Of a DNA stretch of 64,000 bases, positions 27,529 to 33,824 are shown one piece after another. Below the pieces are notes generated by a model. The model saw only the letters and a program-made list of their open reading frames with translations. It did not search any database and was not told the DNA's origin. The stretch lies in the NCBI GenBank assembly GCA_016873165.1, contig VGXV01000013.1, forward strand, positions 1 to 64,000, in the 5' to 3' direction. The position numbers and the translations under genes are program-made. Each line of letters begins with the position of its first letter. Positions within the stretch are counted from its first letter, which is position 1. Origin of the DNA: Planctomycetota bacterium. GTDB lineage: Bacteria > Planctomycetota > Brocadiia > Brocadiales > Brocadiaceae.

Positions 27529-28953
27529 TTATTGCAACCCCAATAATCCTGTTGCGGTGATCTTTTGGGAATAGATATCCCAATAACTTTTATCTGTGTC
27601 ACGGCCATCTTGCCATACGACAATTGTGCCGCCATTTCCATCGTCCACAATTGCGGAATAGCATTGTGTTTCATATGCAGTGCTTACCGGATTGCCGTTA
27701 TTATTCCATAATGAAGCGCCGGTTGAATCAATTCTTTGCGCATAAATATCAAATAATGAGGCGCGGTTATCATTCCATACTAAAATAGCGCCGCCTGCGC
27801 CATCTGCAATGATTGACACATAATTTTGAATACCCTCTTCAACACAGACTGGCAATCCATTCTCCTTCCACAAAGTATTTCCCGTGAGATCAACACGCTG
27901 GGCATAGACATCGTATTTGCCGCTGCGTAAATCCCACCATGCAATAATTGCGCCACCTGCTCCATCGGTTGCCATCACCGGATAGTCTTGTTTTCCATTT
28001 GCAATAGAAACAGGGATTCCGTCTGCTTCCCATAATATGTCGCCATTGCCATCAATTTGTTGCACAAAAATATCGTTATTATCGTTGCGCATATCCATCC
28101 ATGCTACGATTACTCCTTCAGCGCCATTACTAATAATAACAGGATAGCTTTCGTGTCCACGGGCGCCGCACACATTTACTCCTGCTTTATCCCATACAAT
28201 ATTGCCGCTGCCATCAATCCTCTGTGCATAAATATCTGCATAACTTTTTCTGAAATCCAACCAAACCACAATTGCGCCGCCATGTCCATCATCTATCGCA
28301 ATGGGAGCGCTTTGGGATCCGAAAACCCAGCAAACGGGAACTCCATTTTTTTTCCACAACAATTCTCCATTGCCATTGACCCTCTGGGCAAACAGATCAT
28401 CATAATTCGTCCTGGTATCCTGCCAGATAATAATAGCGCCGCCTGCTCCATCAGTAACAATACATGGGCTGTCCTGTTCGTTAATTTCATCGCATACCGG
28501 AATCCCATCCGCCTTCCACATGGGATTTCCGTTTGCATCGATTCTTTGGGCGTAAATATCCGCATTGGTAATCCCGCCGCGCAAATCATGCCAGGTGATA
28601 ACCACACCGCCGGCGCCATCGCTGACAATTTTTGGCAGTTTCTGGTTTTCTTCCGCAAGGCACACGGGCACCCCGTTTTCCTTCCATACAACATTTCCTT
28701 TTGCATCGATTCGCTGAGCAAAAATATCAAAATGAACATTGCGTGTATCTTCCCATACAATAATGGCGCCTCCCGCACCGTCACTTATTGTCTGAATTGC
28801 GCTTTGTTGGCCTGTAGCATTGCAAATTAACGTATTTTCCTGAGGACTGGCCAACCATGCCGCTATTGCATGTTTCTGCAAAAACATTATGAATGCAAAC
28901 ATTATAACAACACATGCCGTCAGATAAGTGTGCAGTTTTACTGATGTATACAT
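27529..28953 (-). CDS. secreted eight-repeat beta-propeller-like protein
   Basis: 474 residues. A hydrophobic N-terminus ('TACVVIMFAFIMFLQ', ending AIAAW) is a signal peptide or anchor. The remainder is eight repeats of about 52 residues, each with the core 'DGAGGAIIVWxDxR', 'DIYAQRID', 'GNxxWxxxGxPVC'. Such repeats probably build a beta-propeller. I start at 28953 because AAAGGA lies at correct distance; an in-frame TTG at 28968 adds five residues. Repeated GC-rich codons favour recombination between units. Ligand unknown. Confidence 0.75.
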   Translation of the reverse strand: MYTSVKLHTYLTACVVIMFAFIMFLQKHAIAAWLASPQENTLICNATGQQSAIQTISDGAGGAIIVWEDTRNVHFDIFAQRIDAKGNVVWKENGVPVCLAEENQKLPKIVSDGAGGVVITWHDLRGGITNADIYAQRIDANGNPMWKADGIPVCDEINEQDSPCIVTDGAGGAIIIWQDTRTNYDDLFAQRVNGNGELLWKKNGVPVCWVFGSQSAPIAIDDGHGGAIVVWLDFRKSYADIYAQRIDGSGNIVWDKAGVNVCGARGHESYPVIISNGAEGVIVAWMDMRNDNNDIFVQQIDGNGDILWEADGIPVSIANGKQDYPVMATDGAGGAIIAWWDLRSGKYDVYAQRVDLTGNTLWKENGLPVCVEEGIQNYVSIIADGAGGAILVWNDNRASLFDIYAQRIDSTGASLWNNNGNPVSTAYETQCYSAIVDDGNGGTIVVWQDGRDTDKSYWDIYSQKITATGLLGLQ

Positions 28954-29044
28954 TTGAATTCCTTTCAACTAACTTCAGCGATTACGTTTCCAAAAACAGT
29001 ACGCGGTATACCGCAATACCTATTAAAAAACAAACTATTATGTT

Positions 29045-30385
29045 TTATTCTTTGCCCTGTGCATCCGTTACGATACCTTCGGACCAATCAATTATAGAAT
29101 GAATATTCACCGGTTCTCCCCCTACGGTCATTTTGCGCTGTCTGCCCTCCAGCAACTTTTTCTCCTCTCCTTCCAGCAGCAATGTGGCTTCACCCTTTAC
29201 CGCCGTGACAATGGTAACGTACTCCGTTATCTGCATATTAAAAATACCGTCATTTGCCACAATCTTTCCGTTCGGGGTAAATATTTCCAGGTTTTTTTTC
29301 AGCTTTTCCAGGGAGATAAACAGTTGTCCTTTTTTAATAGTAATCTTCCACGGACTAACAAAACACATCTCTGTATCCGAATCCAGATTTATACCCATCC
29401 CCTTTTTTGTTGAAAAAGATGCCTTTTCTCCATTGCCTGTTTTGAGAATAACGCCGCTCTGTAAGCTGTGAACCGTTGATATATTTTTCCACTTTTGATC
29501 ATCGGTCTTCTGAAATTGAACATTTCCATAGGTATGGGAAATATCTATCCTGCCGCGCTTATGGGTAAAATAAAAATACGCTCCCGCCAGGGCGATAATG
29601 CTGCTCCCAACAATCACGCCAAGCAGGATAAATCCTTTTCTTGTTGGTTTTGCTATAAGTATTCCCAGTTCATACAGCAGAATCATTGGGGCTGCGGTCA
29701 TAGTCTGGGTAAAAGGATCCGGGGGGGTTACTATAGCGGCAATGATAAAAATCACAAGAATTGAATATTTTCTCCACTTGATAAATTTGTCGGCTGTCAC
29801 AAATCGTATCTTTGATAATAGCAGCATTACGAGGGGGAGCTGAAACACTAAACCAAGCGCAATCGTAAGCAGGAAAACAAACGACACGTATTGTTGCATC
29901 GTAATGATGGGTTGGACATCATGTCCCAGTATGCTTATTAAAAATTGCAAACCAAAGGGAATCAACAAATAATATCCAAAAAGCCCCCCCATGACGAATG
30001 CAATGTAGGAAGCCGGAAAAAAAACGAGGATGTACCTTTTTTCCTTTGAATATAACCCCGCGCTGACGAATTTCCATGCCTGATATATAATAACGGGATA
30101 CACCAGGAAAAGAGAACTGATGAGACACAACTTCATGTATGCGTAAAAACCTTCCTGATAGCTCAATACCTGCAATCCGGTGGAAAGTCCTAATTTACGC
30201 ATGGCTATTCCATGAGGCCGTTTCACTATATCCATAATATGCATCTTAAATACCCAGCACATTATGAAGCACAAAATGACTGCAATGACGGAATAAAAAA
30301 CTCTGCGCCGCAATTCTTCCAGATGCGAACCCAGCGGCATCCTGGCTTCTTCGATTTTGTTGTATTCTTCCTCTGCTATATCCAC
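29045..30385 (-). CDS. tatC: TatC translocase fused to a FecR-like domain
   Basis: About 446 residues. Residues about 15-265 are TatC: 'MPLGSHLEELRRRVFYSVI', the 'YQEGFYAYMKL' loop and six membrane helices, ending 'TPPDPFTQTMTAAPMILLYE'. A seventh helix ('FILLGVIVGSSIIALAGAYF') then carries a 150-residue beta-rich domain resembling FecR ('SGVILKTGNGEKASFSTKKG', 'GKIVANDGIFNMQI', 'VTAVKGEATLLLEGE'). By topology this tail lies on the opposite side from the normal TatC C-terminus, i.e. periplasmic or equivalent. I start at the GTG at 30385 (AGGG seven bases upstream); the frame is open to 30421. No tatA/B is nearby. Confidence 0.85.
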   Translation of the reverse strand: MDIAEEEYNKIEEARMPLGSHLEELRRRVFYSVIAVILCFIMCWVFKMHIMDIVKRPHGIAMRKLGLSTGLQVLSYQEGFYAYMKLCLISSLFLVYPVIIYQAWKFVSAGLYSKEKRYILVFFPASYIAFVMGGLFGYYLLIPFGLQFLISILGHDVQPIITMQQYVSFVFLLTIALGLVFQLPLVMLLLSKIRFVTADKFIKWRKYSILVIFIIAAIVTPPDPFTQTMTAAPMILLYELGILIAKPTRKGFILLGVIVGSSIIALAGAYFYFTHKRGRIDISHTYGNVQFQKTDDQKWKNISTVHSLQSGVILKTGNGEKASFSTKKGMGINLDSDTEMCFVSPWKITIKKGQLFISLEKLKKNLEIFTPNGKIVANDGIFNMQITEYVTIVTAVKGEATLLLEGEEKKLLEGRQRKMTVGGEPVNIHSIIDWSEGIVTDAQGKE

Positions 30386-30533
30386 GCAAAACCCTATAAA
30401 TATCCGCTGCAACACAACCACATTTTTCTGATAAAAAAGAGGGTTTTAATGATACAACGATAATTCCGAAATTACAAGAAACAATTAACATCGCCATGAG
30501 TTCAAAGTGAGAATTCAGGCAAAAGGAAAAGCC

Positions 30534-30647: not shown

Positions 30648-31112
30648 ATGGGCGCTGAATATAGTGGAAAACTGATTGCTACGGGCAAGTCTTTTGGAAT
30701 TATCGTAAGCCGATATAATAGTTTCATCACAAAACGTTTACTGGAAGGCGCAATTGATGGGCTTGTAAGGCATGGTGTAAAAGAAGATGACATTGCTGTA
30801 TTTTGGGTGCCCGGCGCTTATGAGATTCCCATTGCAGCCCAAAAGGTTATACAAACAGGAAAATATGACGCAATTATTTGCCTTGGGGCAATTATTCGCG
30901 GAGAAACGCCCCATTTTGATTTTGTTGCCAGCGAATCCGCGAAAGGCATTACGCAGATTGGTTTGTCGTCCGGAGTGCCAACCATCTATGGCATTATTAC
31001 AACAGAAACATTAGAACAAGCAATTGACCGTGCTGGTGCAAAAACAGGAAATAAAGGCACAGAGGCAGCTTTATCGGCTATAGAAATGGTAAACCTCTTT
31101 GATCAAATATAA
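30648..31112 (+). CDS. ribH: 6,7-dimethyl-8-ribityllumazine synthase
   Basis: 154 residues, the icosahedral capsid-forming riboflavin enzyme. Motifs: '[19 protein letters not shown]', '[15 protein letters not shown]', '[17 protein letters not shown]', the catalytic histidine in 'PHFDF', and '[17 protein letters not shown]'. It is followed by the NusB fusion gene, matching the common ribH-nusB gene order. A weak inverted repeat (GGTGTAA/TTACACC) lies just behind the stop. Confidence 0.97.
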
Positions 31113-31261: not shown

Positions 31262-32530
31262 ATGCGCAACAGAACGATTGCCCGCGAACTTGCCCTACAG
31301 GCATTATACCAGCTCGATTTGCGCGGAGACGAAACGGAAAATGAAATGGAAGAATTCTGCAGGCAGAGCTCTGAAAAACCTGATATATATAAGTTCGCCA
31401 TGTCGCTTATCAAGGGATGCAGATCTCACGTAAAAGAAATCGATGAGAAAATTTCACTTTCTGCGGAAAACTGGGATTTGCACCGGATGGCCATTATTGA
31501 CAAAAATATTCTGCGGCTGGGCATATATGAGCTGTTATACAGGGATGATATTCCCCCGAAGGTTTCCATTAATGAAGCAATAGAACTTGCCAAAAAATTC
31601 AGCACCAAAGATTCCGGAATGTTTGTTAATGGTGTTTTGGATAAAGTATATAATTGGCTGAAAAATGAAAAAGCAAAAGACGCAAGAAAAGAGGAATCCG
31701 AACCCATTTTCGGCATTTCCGACTTACATATACACACAAATTATTCTGACGGCACAACAACTCCGGAAGAGGTCGTTGATGAATCCATACGATTGGGTTT
31801 GTCCGCAATCGCCATCACCGATCATGATACGATTCAGGGATTTCTGAGGGCAGACGAATACAGGAACGGGAAAAAACTTCATATCATTCCCGGTATAGAA
31901 ATTTCTTCATTTCTTGACCCTTCGGAGATACATATTTTAGGGTATTTTATCGACATCCATAATGACGCATTAAACGCCGTAATAAAAAAAGCGCACAAAG
32001 ACAGAGTGGAGCGTATTTATACAATGGCGGAAAAACTCCGCAACCTTCAGGTCAACATAAATCCAGGAGAAGTATTAAACCTTGCGGGAGAAGGAACCCC
32101 GGGACGCATGCATGTGGCAGAAGTGATCTGGCGCAACGGATACACCGCGACATTGCTGGAATCATTTTATAAATACATCGGCGATAAGGCGCCCGCATAT
32201 GTTCCTAAAAAAACATTAACCCCGCAGGAGGCCATTGAACTGATACGAAATGCGAAAGGAGTGCCGGTACTGGCTCATCCCGGACTTACACAGCGGGATA
32301 ATATTATTGAAGATCTTGTAAAATACGGCTTGCAGGGGATAGAGGTATACTATCCCTCCCATACAAAAGCAACCGTAGAAAAATACCTCAAATTGGCAAA
32401 AAAATATAATCTTGTGGTAACCGGCGGCTCCGATTTTCACGGAGAAAGAAAGAGTGACAATCCGATAGCAAAAGTTACTATATCCGGCAACCTTGTGAAA
32501 CAACTGAAGCAAAGATGCAACATTAATTGA
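31262..32530 (+). CDS. nusB: NusB fused to a PHP-domain (TrpH/RNase AM-like) phosphoesterase
   Basis: 422 residues with two complete domains. Residues 1-137 are NusB: 'RTIARELALQALYQLDLRGD', 'DLHRMAIIDKNILRLGIYEL', 'VSINEAIELAKKFSTKDSG', 'FVNGVLDKV'. After a charged linker, residues 149-422 are a PHP domain of the TrpH/YciV type: 'DLHIHTNYSDGTTTPEEVV', 'AITDHDTIQGF', 'PGIEISS', 'LAHPGL' and 'GSDFHG', providing the metal-binding His/Asp set. NusB works in rRNA transcription antitermination, and E. coli RNase AM trims rRNA 5' ends, so the fusion makes functional sense. No stop or frameshift separates the halves. Confidence 0.9.
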   Translation: MRNRTIARELALQALYQLDLRGDETENEMEEFCRQSSEKPDIYKFAMSLIKGCRSHVKEIDEKISLSAENWDLHRMAIIDKNILRLGIYELLYRDDIPPKVSINEAIELAKKFSTKDSGMFVNGVLDKVYNWLKNEKAKDARKEESEPIFGISDLHIHTNYSDGTTTPEEVVDESIRLGLSAIAITDHDTIQGFLRADEYRNGKKLHIIPGIEISSFLDPSEIHILGYFIDIHNDALNAVIKKAHKDRVERIYTMAEKLRNLQVNINPGEVLNLAGEGTPGRMHVAEVIWRNGYTATLLESFYKYIGDKAPAYVPKKTLTPQEAIELIRNAKGVPVLAHPGLTQRDNIIEDLVKYGLQGIEVYYPSHTKATVEKYLKLAKKYNLVVTGGSDFHGERKSDNPIAKVTISGNLVKQLKQRCNIN

Positions 32531-32591: not shown

Positions 32592-33824
32592 ATGGGAAAA
32601 ACAGAAAAGACCGAAATGAAGGACGATACCCAAAAAACCAAAAAAAGCCTTTGGTATCGCATTAAAAACTTTACATTTGAACCAAAGAAAACAGTTGTTA
32701 TAGAAGATGGCACAATACGCCTCGTGCCCATTGATCAGGCGCCTGTTGTTCTCAAAGAAAAAGTGGCGGAAAGGCATGTTCCGCCTGAAGCGGTTGTTAT
32801 AGAAAAAGCGCCTCCGGAAAAACCCGTCATCGTTCCGAAAGAAAAACCGGTTATTGAAGAAATAAAAGAAAAGCCCGTTGTAAAAGAAAAAATAATTAAG
32901 AAAGAACCCGTTGTTGTACCGAATAAGTTAAAAAAAGGGCTTGAAAAGACGAGGGGACGCTTTTGGTCGCGTTTAAAAGATTTCCTGTCATTCAGAAAAG
33001 GCATCGACGAATCGGTGCTTGAAGAATTGGAAGACATCCTCATCGGAGCGGATATGGGTGCGCGTCCCGTGCAAAAACTTATCGAAGAAATACATGGGGC
33101 ATGGAAAGAAAAAATAATTACCGAAACATCTCAGATAAATAATTTTATAAAAGGGCGACTGAAGGAGGACTTACACCAGTGGAAAACCGACATCCAATAT
33201 GCAAATAAGCCGCCTACGGTCATTATGGTAGTCGGCGTTAACGGCGTAGGCAAAACAACCTCCATAGCAAAGCTCGCAAGTTCCCTGATTAAGGAAGGTA
33301 AAAAAGTGATGCTTGCCGCAAGCGATACTTTCCGGGCAGCGGCAGTAGACCAACTGGACATCTGGTGTAAACGCATCGGGGCTGATATCGTAAAACATCA
33401 GACAGGTTCCGATCCCGCTGCTGTGGCGTATGATGCCCTTGAAGCAAGCATTGCAAGGGGCATGGATGTTTTAATCGTGGACACCGCAGGACGACTTCAT
33501 ACCCATGACAATCTGATGAAAGAACTCACGAAAATAAAACGCGTTATTTCGAAGAGAATTCCCGATGCGCCGCATGAGGTAATAATGGTGCTTGATGCCA
33601 CTACCGGGCAGAATGCGATCTCACAGGCTAAAATGTTCAAGGAAGCAGTGGACGTAACGGGAATATTTCTTGCAAAACTGGACGGTACGGCAAAAGGCGG
33701 CATAGTGCTTGGCATGTGCAATGAAACAAAAATCCCTGTCAAATTTGTCGGGCTTGGTGAACAGGCGGATGATATTGAGAAATTTAACCCTGACTCGTTT
33801 GTGGACACCCTGTTAGAACAATGA
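32592..33824 (+). CDS. ftsY: signal recognition particle receptor FtsY
   Basis: 410 residues. The first 115 are charged and carry proline-rich near-repeats ('EKPVIVPKEKPVIEEIKEKP'). The NG GTPase domain follows: 'GVNGVGKTTSIAKLASSL', 'AASDTFRAAAVDQL', 'DTAGRLHTHDNLM' and 'LDGTAKGGIVLG'. It docks SRP-ribosome complexes at the membrane. Its stop overlaps the ATG of the iron-sulfur subunit gene by four bases (ATGA). Confidence 0.97.
   Translation: MGKTEKTEMKDDTQKTKKSLWYRIKNFTFEPKKTVVIEDGTIRLVPIDQAPVVLKEKVAERHVPPEAVVIEKAPPEKPVIVPKEKPVIEEIKEKPVVKEKIIKKEPVVVPNKLKKGLEKTRGRFWSRLKDFLSFRKGIDESVLEELEDILIGADMGARPVQKLIEEIHGAWKEKIITETSQINNFIKGRLKEDLHQWKTDIQYANKPPTVIMVVGVNGVGKTTSIAKLASSLIKEGKKVMLAASDTFRAAAVDQLDIWCKRIGADIVKHQTGSDPAAVAYDALEASIARGMDVLIVDTAGRLHTHDNLMKELTKIKRVISKRIPDAPHEVIMVLDATTGQNAISQAKMFKEAVDVTGIFLAKLDGTAKGGIVLGMCNETKIPVKFVGLGEQADDIEKFNPDSFVDTLLEQ

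Follow-up and report, generated by a model that had tools for sequence, protein, structure and literature searches.

A NusB protein fused in one frame to a PHP phosphoesterase of the RNase AM / nucleoside-bisphosphatase group in an anammox planctomycete and its relatives

An anammox planctomycete with a genome of 4.0 Mb encodes a NusB protein that carries, within the same polypeptide, a C-terminal phosphoesterase of the PHP type. The fused gene occupies positions 31262..32530 (+) of the window, that is, of the whole stretch of 64,000 nucleotides analysed, where it starts with ATG and runs through 422 amino acids with zero internal stops, so that the single uninterrupted 422-codon frame originally predicted from the DNA was confirmed. 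Ordinary NusB is a stand-alone protein of ~140 amino acids that grips newly made rRNA. Each of the two domains is of a known kind and the combination is what appears to be new; a literature search, thin on subscription papers, found no published description of a NusB-PHP fusion, and the single paper that mentions both NusB and a PHP domain deals with a different subject. It is proposed here, with a probability of about 55%, that the protein is a bifunctional NusB that would tether a 5'-3' exonuclease of the RNase AM type to nascent rRNA.

The NusB domain, residues 1-137 (31262..31672, +), is complete, as the original prediction had it. It scores 146.3 bits against the TIGR01951 nusB model (cut-off 88.35), covering model positions 2-129 of 131, and Pfam places NusB at residues 6-130 (E 5.5e-38). 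In the AlphaFold2 model this half superposes on the NusB-NusE-boxA structure 3r2c with Z 20.8 and rmsd 1.7 over 136 residues, and the values against the NusB-NusE structures 3r2c and 3imq taken together are Z about 20 and rmsd 1.7-2.3. The domain thus resembles known NusB proteins (TIGR01951/PF01029; those of A. aeolicus, as in 3r2c, and E. coli) in completeness, score and fold, and shares with E. coli NusB both a lumazine-synthase gene placed ahead of nusB and a boxA in the host rRNA leader; unlike them, it bears a C-terminal enzyme domain. A search of the genome for a separate NusB, suggested as a check on the prediction, found none, the only other NusB-domain match being a 477-amino acid frame of RsmB size. 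The fused protein is the only NusB of this genome, apart from the NusB domain of that RsmB-type protein.

Between the two halves lies a linker of about residues 138-153 (31673..31720, +), predicted to be disordered. The AlphaFold2 model, built from nine sequences (mean pLDDT 77.4, pTM 0.56), has both domains well formed, residues 138-153 at pLDDT < 50 and a relative placement of the domains that is not reliable. Across relatives, the distance from the last NusB motif to the start of the PHP domain ranges from 18 to 76 residues and the intervening sequence is poorly conserved between families, as expected for a tether.

The PHP phosphoesterase, which belongs to the RNase AM / nucleoside-bisphosphatase group, extends over about residues 151-420, with residues 154-422 encoded at 31721..32527 (+). 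Pfam recognizes PHP (PF02811) at residues 154-254 (E 6.4e-15; 56 bits against a cut-off of 26.4), and the NCBIfam models for RNase RNM and the nucleoside bisphosphatases match residues 152-401. The fold of this half matches 3o0f (Z 31.2), RNase AM of V. cholerae (9etk, Z 28.3) and CV1693 (2yb1, Z 27.0). It also agrees with the broad group of COG0613-type PHP phosphoesterases in having the fold with its insertion domain and similarity along the full length, with 272 residues aligned to 3o0f.

The catalytic and 5'-phosphate-pocket residues are intact. In E. coli RNase AM three Mn ions are bound by His13, Glu72, Asp255, His83, His198, Asp20, His45 and His257, and a 5'-phosphate cavity is formed by Arg107, Arg110 and Arg141, where Phe161 stacks against the base (PMC9410882). 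The metal-binding equivalents in the window are, in the same order, H156, E213, D391, H224, H339, D163, H188 and H393, and those of the pocket are R248, R251, R282 and F302; all eight and all four are identical to the E. coli residues in 29 out of 29 sampled fused proteins. A complete PHP domain with its metal-ligand motifs had been predicted, and the full-length homology and intact metal site bear this out. The residue through which E. coli RNase AM touches the phosphate position, Arg201, is not conserved, being Leu342 in the window and L, V, T or A in the fused proteins (27 of 29 rows, those whose state was printed).

The subfamily is less sharply defined. The PHP half reaches 162.1 bits with the RNase RNM model NF047791, below its cut-off of 375 (E. 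coli RNase AM itself scores 505.9), and 163.9 bits with the 3',5'-nucleoside bisphosphate phosphatase model NF041577, below its cut-off of 400. An unfused, clustered relative likewise falls far below the curated cut-offs, with no subfamily decision. Judged by sequence, the PHP half is equally near to RNase AM and to the 3',5'-bisphosphate phosphatases, and the curated models cannot decide between them. The original label of an RNase AM-like PHP holds for fold, metal site and pocket, and is weakened by the tied models (162 of 375 and 164 of 400 bits) and the loss of Arg201. With RNase AM (Rnm, YciV; E. coli and V. cholerae; NF047791; 7ug9, 9etk) the domain shares homology over the full length, the insertion region included, together with every metal-binding residue and the 5'-phosphate pocket; it differs in having ~30% identity, a score below the curated cut-off, a replaced Arg201 and a NusB joined to it, whereas rnm of E. 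coli stands as a gene of its own near trp. With the 3',5'-nucleoside bisphosphate phosphatase CV1693 (NF041577; 2yb1) it shares fold, catalytic residues and an equal model score, but stays below the NF041577 cut-off and is joined to NusB. The nearest solved structure by both sequence and fold is the BAD_1165 phosphoesterase of Bifidobacterium adolescentis (3e0f/3o0f), which in the alignment is likewise without Arg at the Arg201 position and, unlike the fused protein, stands alone.

The main rival explanation makes the PHP half a phosphatase of nucleotides or short RNAs that has only the operon in common with nusB. It would be a 3',5'-nucleoside bisphosphate phosphatase or a nanoRNase that clears pAp and RNAs of 2-5 nt, and it would have been fused through shared expression rather than through work on rRNA in place. 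We consider this rather unlikely. The best curated model is, narrowly, that of the bisphosphate phosphatase, CV1693 with AMP and phosphate is among the nearest solved folds, and Arg201 is not conserved; yet neither curated cut-off is reached, the 5'-phosphate pocket is common to both activities (PMC9410882), and scavenging does not account for a repeated coupling to nusB specifically.

No second PHP of the same group was found in the genome, where the other PHP matches are a 1157-amino acid frame (the size of DNA polymerase III alpha), PolX and a PRK06361-type protein; the fused protein is the genome's only PHP of the RNase AM / nucleoside-bisphosphatase group. In family f9 (L141 and L142), genomes with the fusion also have a second, stand-alone PHP of this group, 35-37% identical to the fused query and apart from it in the tree. 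At locus L133 (3992-5692, -; family f12) the C-terminus of a 566-amino acid frame is likewise a PHP of this group; the frame's N-terminal ~295 residues may represent another fusion or an overlong frame.

The two-domain architecture, which the original prediction proposed to look for in other planctomycetes, is widespread. When 75 genomes of the class were searched for a match across both halves, the fusion was found in one frame in 63, with one continuous match spanning both halves in 58 and both halves within one longer frame in five more. In four other genomes nusB and php adjoin as separate genes, one of them having a stop after nusB followed by about 200 bases before php; one genome has the halves at unlinked loci (ribH-nusB and php-ftsY), and in another the locus is broken off by the contig end. 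Six of the 75, mostly incomplete or highly fragmented assemblies, gave no strong match. The fusion is kept down to about 41% identity. A sequencing or assembly error, or a frameshift, as the cause of the fusion is ruled out, since the same stop-free architecture recurs in these 63 of the 75 class genomes, dozens of them independent. Among the observations named beforehand as able to overturn the original prediction, neither a stop or frameshift, nor a second NusB, nor a dead metal site was found.

In the window the fused gene is preceded by ribH, for lumazine synthase (30648..31112, +; PF00885, 194 bits), and followed by ftsY, for the SRP receptor GTPase (32592..33824, +; PF00448, 260 bits), an order kept in relatives. 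At the N-terminus of FtsY lies a long extension (32592-32960, +; KPVIVPKEKPVIEEIKEKPVVKEK) in which P, K, V and E abound, and its length differs widely among relatives. Farther upstream, tatC (29045-30421, -; 218 bits) encodes a C-terminal extension weakly similar to FecR (22.3 bits, cut-off 24) and may thus be a TatC-FecR fusion. The frame at 27529-28968 (-) encodes a probably secreted protein of 479 amino acids with many DIYAQRIDGNGNxLW..GVPV-type repeats, for which Pfam offers only a doubtful DUF1491.

Outside the class, ribH, nusB, php and ftsY occur in this order as four separate genes at seven loci from several planctomycete families, and at an eighth (L044) ribH-nusB-php can be followed as far as the contig end. 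The nusB stop and the php start overlap as ATGA at three loci (L055, L128 and L130) and as TGATG at L044. In another set of 19 loci, ftsY directly follows nusB without php between them in 17, and the remaining two, both of family f18, have php with ftsY on another contig and ribH-nusB apart. In many planctomycetes this PHP is encoded at a distance from nusB, or nusB-ftsY lacks an intervening php. Part of the phylum thus has php placed between nusB and ftsY and, because the ribH-nusB-php-ftsY cluster exists in other planctomycetes, the fusion arose from a conserved cluster. This nusB-php neighbourhood in other planctomycetes is the strongest argument that the two are functionally linked; the unlinked genes in family f18, and in the one class genome with its halves apart, indicate that tethering is not essential.

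In the PHP tree, fused forms fall together with some of the clustered forms (36 rows, SH-aLRT 83%), and an unfused family (f5) lies beside the fused families f1, f2 and f4. A single clade of all fused rows, and with it one origin for all fusions, was mildly rejected (p-AU 0.028, from a quick tree search and for a group chosen after the tree was seen). Either recurrent fusion or one fusion with later splits is likely, and the fusion perhaps arose more than once. These data also bear on whether the fusion is functionally neutral, the stop having been lost harmlessly between translationally coupled genes whose products still act independently. Several lineages have unfused genes that share a few bases, which makes fusion easy, the linker differs in length and sequence, and related genomes have the genes unfused or unlinked; against neutrality, the fusion is kept in 63 of the 75 genomes down to that same low identity, the sampled proteins have lost none of their catalytic residues, and the mild rejection of a single fused clade makes recurrent fusion possible. 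Neutrality is accordingly judged improbable, more so than a phosphatase role.

The rRNA genes of the host offer a target for an ordinary NusB. Its single rrn operon has the order 16S-tRNA-tRNA-23S-5S, with the boxA TGTTCTTT about 106 nt before 16S and a boxA-like TGCTCATTGAAAA, read by eye, before 23S. After the boxA a strand (AGAAGTC, TGCGTGCGAG, GTAAAACC) is complementary in blocks to the 16S trailer, also as read by eye. The leader-trailer helix was called from these visible blocks rather than from the duplex energy, which at -43.6 is not clearly beyond that of shuffled sequences (mean -31.9, sd 4.8, lowest -49). Across the order, 15 of 20 leaders carry a boxA of the form TGYTCTTT at -90 to -155 of 16S, where 500 simulations gave a mean of 0.16. 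The boxA in these leaders and in the host operon means that the target for an ordinary NusB is present.

RNase E/G is present in the host. For RNase J (TIGR00649) there was no match over the cut-off in 292 planctomycete genomes, while nine control genomes were all over it, implying that 5'-3' RNA decay in the sampled planctomycetes must use something else. The lack of RNase J matches makes the PHP domain a candidate for the 5'-3' exoribonuclease. In E. coli, the enzymes listed as processing the 23S precursor include RNase AM (PMC10250234), and a role in rRNA folding and maturation has been proposed for the antitermination complex (PMC6614801). It is very improbable that the PHP domain instead strips nascent transcripts of non-canonical caps such as FAD, reaching the RNA 5' ends by way of NusB: E. 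coli RNase AM does have deFADding activity (PMC9410882) and the fused protein has the same metal-binding residues, but rRNA transcripts are where boxA and NusB are best known, and no finding of this analysis points to caps.

In the mechanism proposed for the tethered RNase AM-type exonuclease, the N-terminal NusB would act as an ordinary antitermination factor, binding boxA together with NusE/S10, both in the leader and in the spacer of the one rrn operon, and remaining on RNA polymerase. The C-terminal PHP domain, on its flexible tether, would be a three-metal, 5'-phosphate-dependent phosphodiesterase. Cutting of the precursor by RNase E/G and by RNase III, which is assumed, would create 5'-monophosphate ends, and the tethered domain would trim these nucleotide by nucleotide, so that 5' maturation would take place near the polymerase as it transcribes. 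Four elements of this scheme are inferred: the binding to NusE and boxA, the activity as an RNase, rRNA as the substrate and the co-transcriptional timing. Delivery to nascent rRNA is drawn from the domain fusion and the gene order. The fusion, the repeated adjacency and the intact catalytic residues support a functional link. The original proposal of a 5' trimming nuclease delivered to nascent rRNA was upheld in part: the complete halves, the intact metal site, the lack of a separate NusB match, the conserved architecture and the boxA-bearing operon are all consistent with it, and the trimming and the delivery stay conditional.

In a broader form, the chances of which we regard as evenly balanced, an rRNA antitermination complex with a covalent 5'-3' exonuclease may couple transcription to 5' maturation in anammox bacteria and their relatives, and the unfused planctomycetes may do likewise through translationally coupled nusB and php. 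If true, RNA trimming would be brought to the transcribing polymerase in these organisms. The existence of a natural NusB-nuclease-type fusion, together with the clustered form in relatives, makes the link directly testable. The finding suggests how bacteria without RNase J could mature their rRNA 5' ends, and it would extend the role of RNase AM-type enzymes far outside the Proteobacteria.
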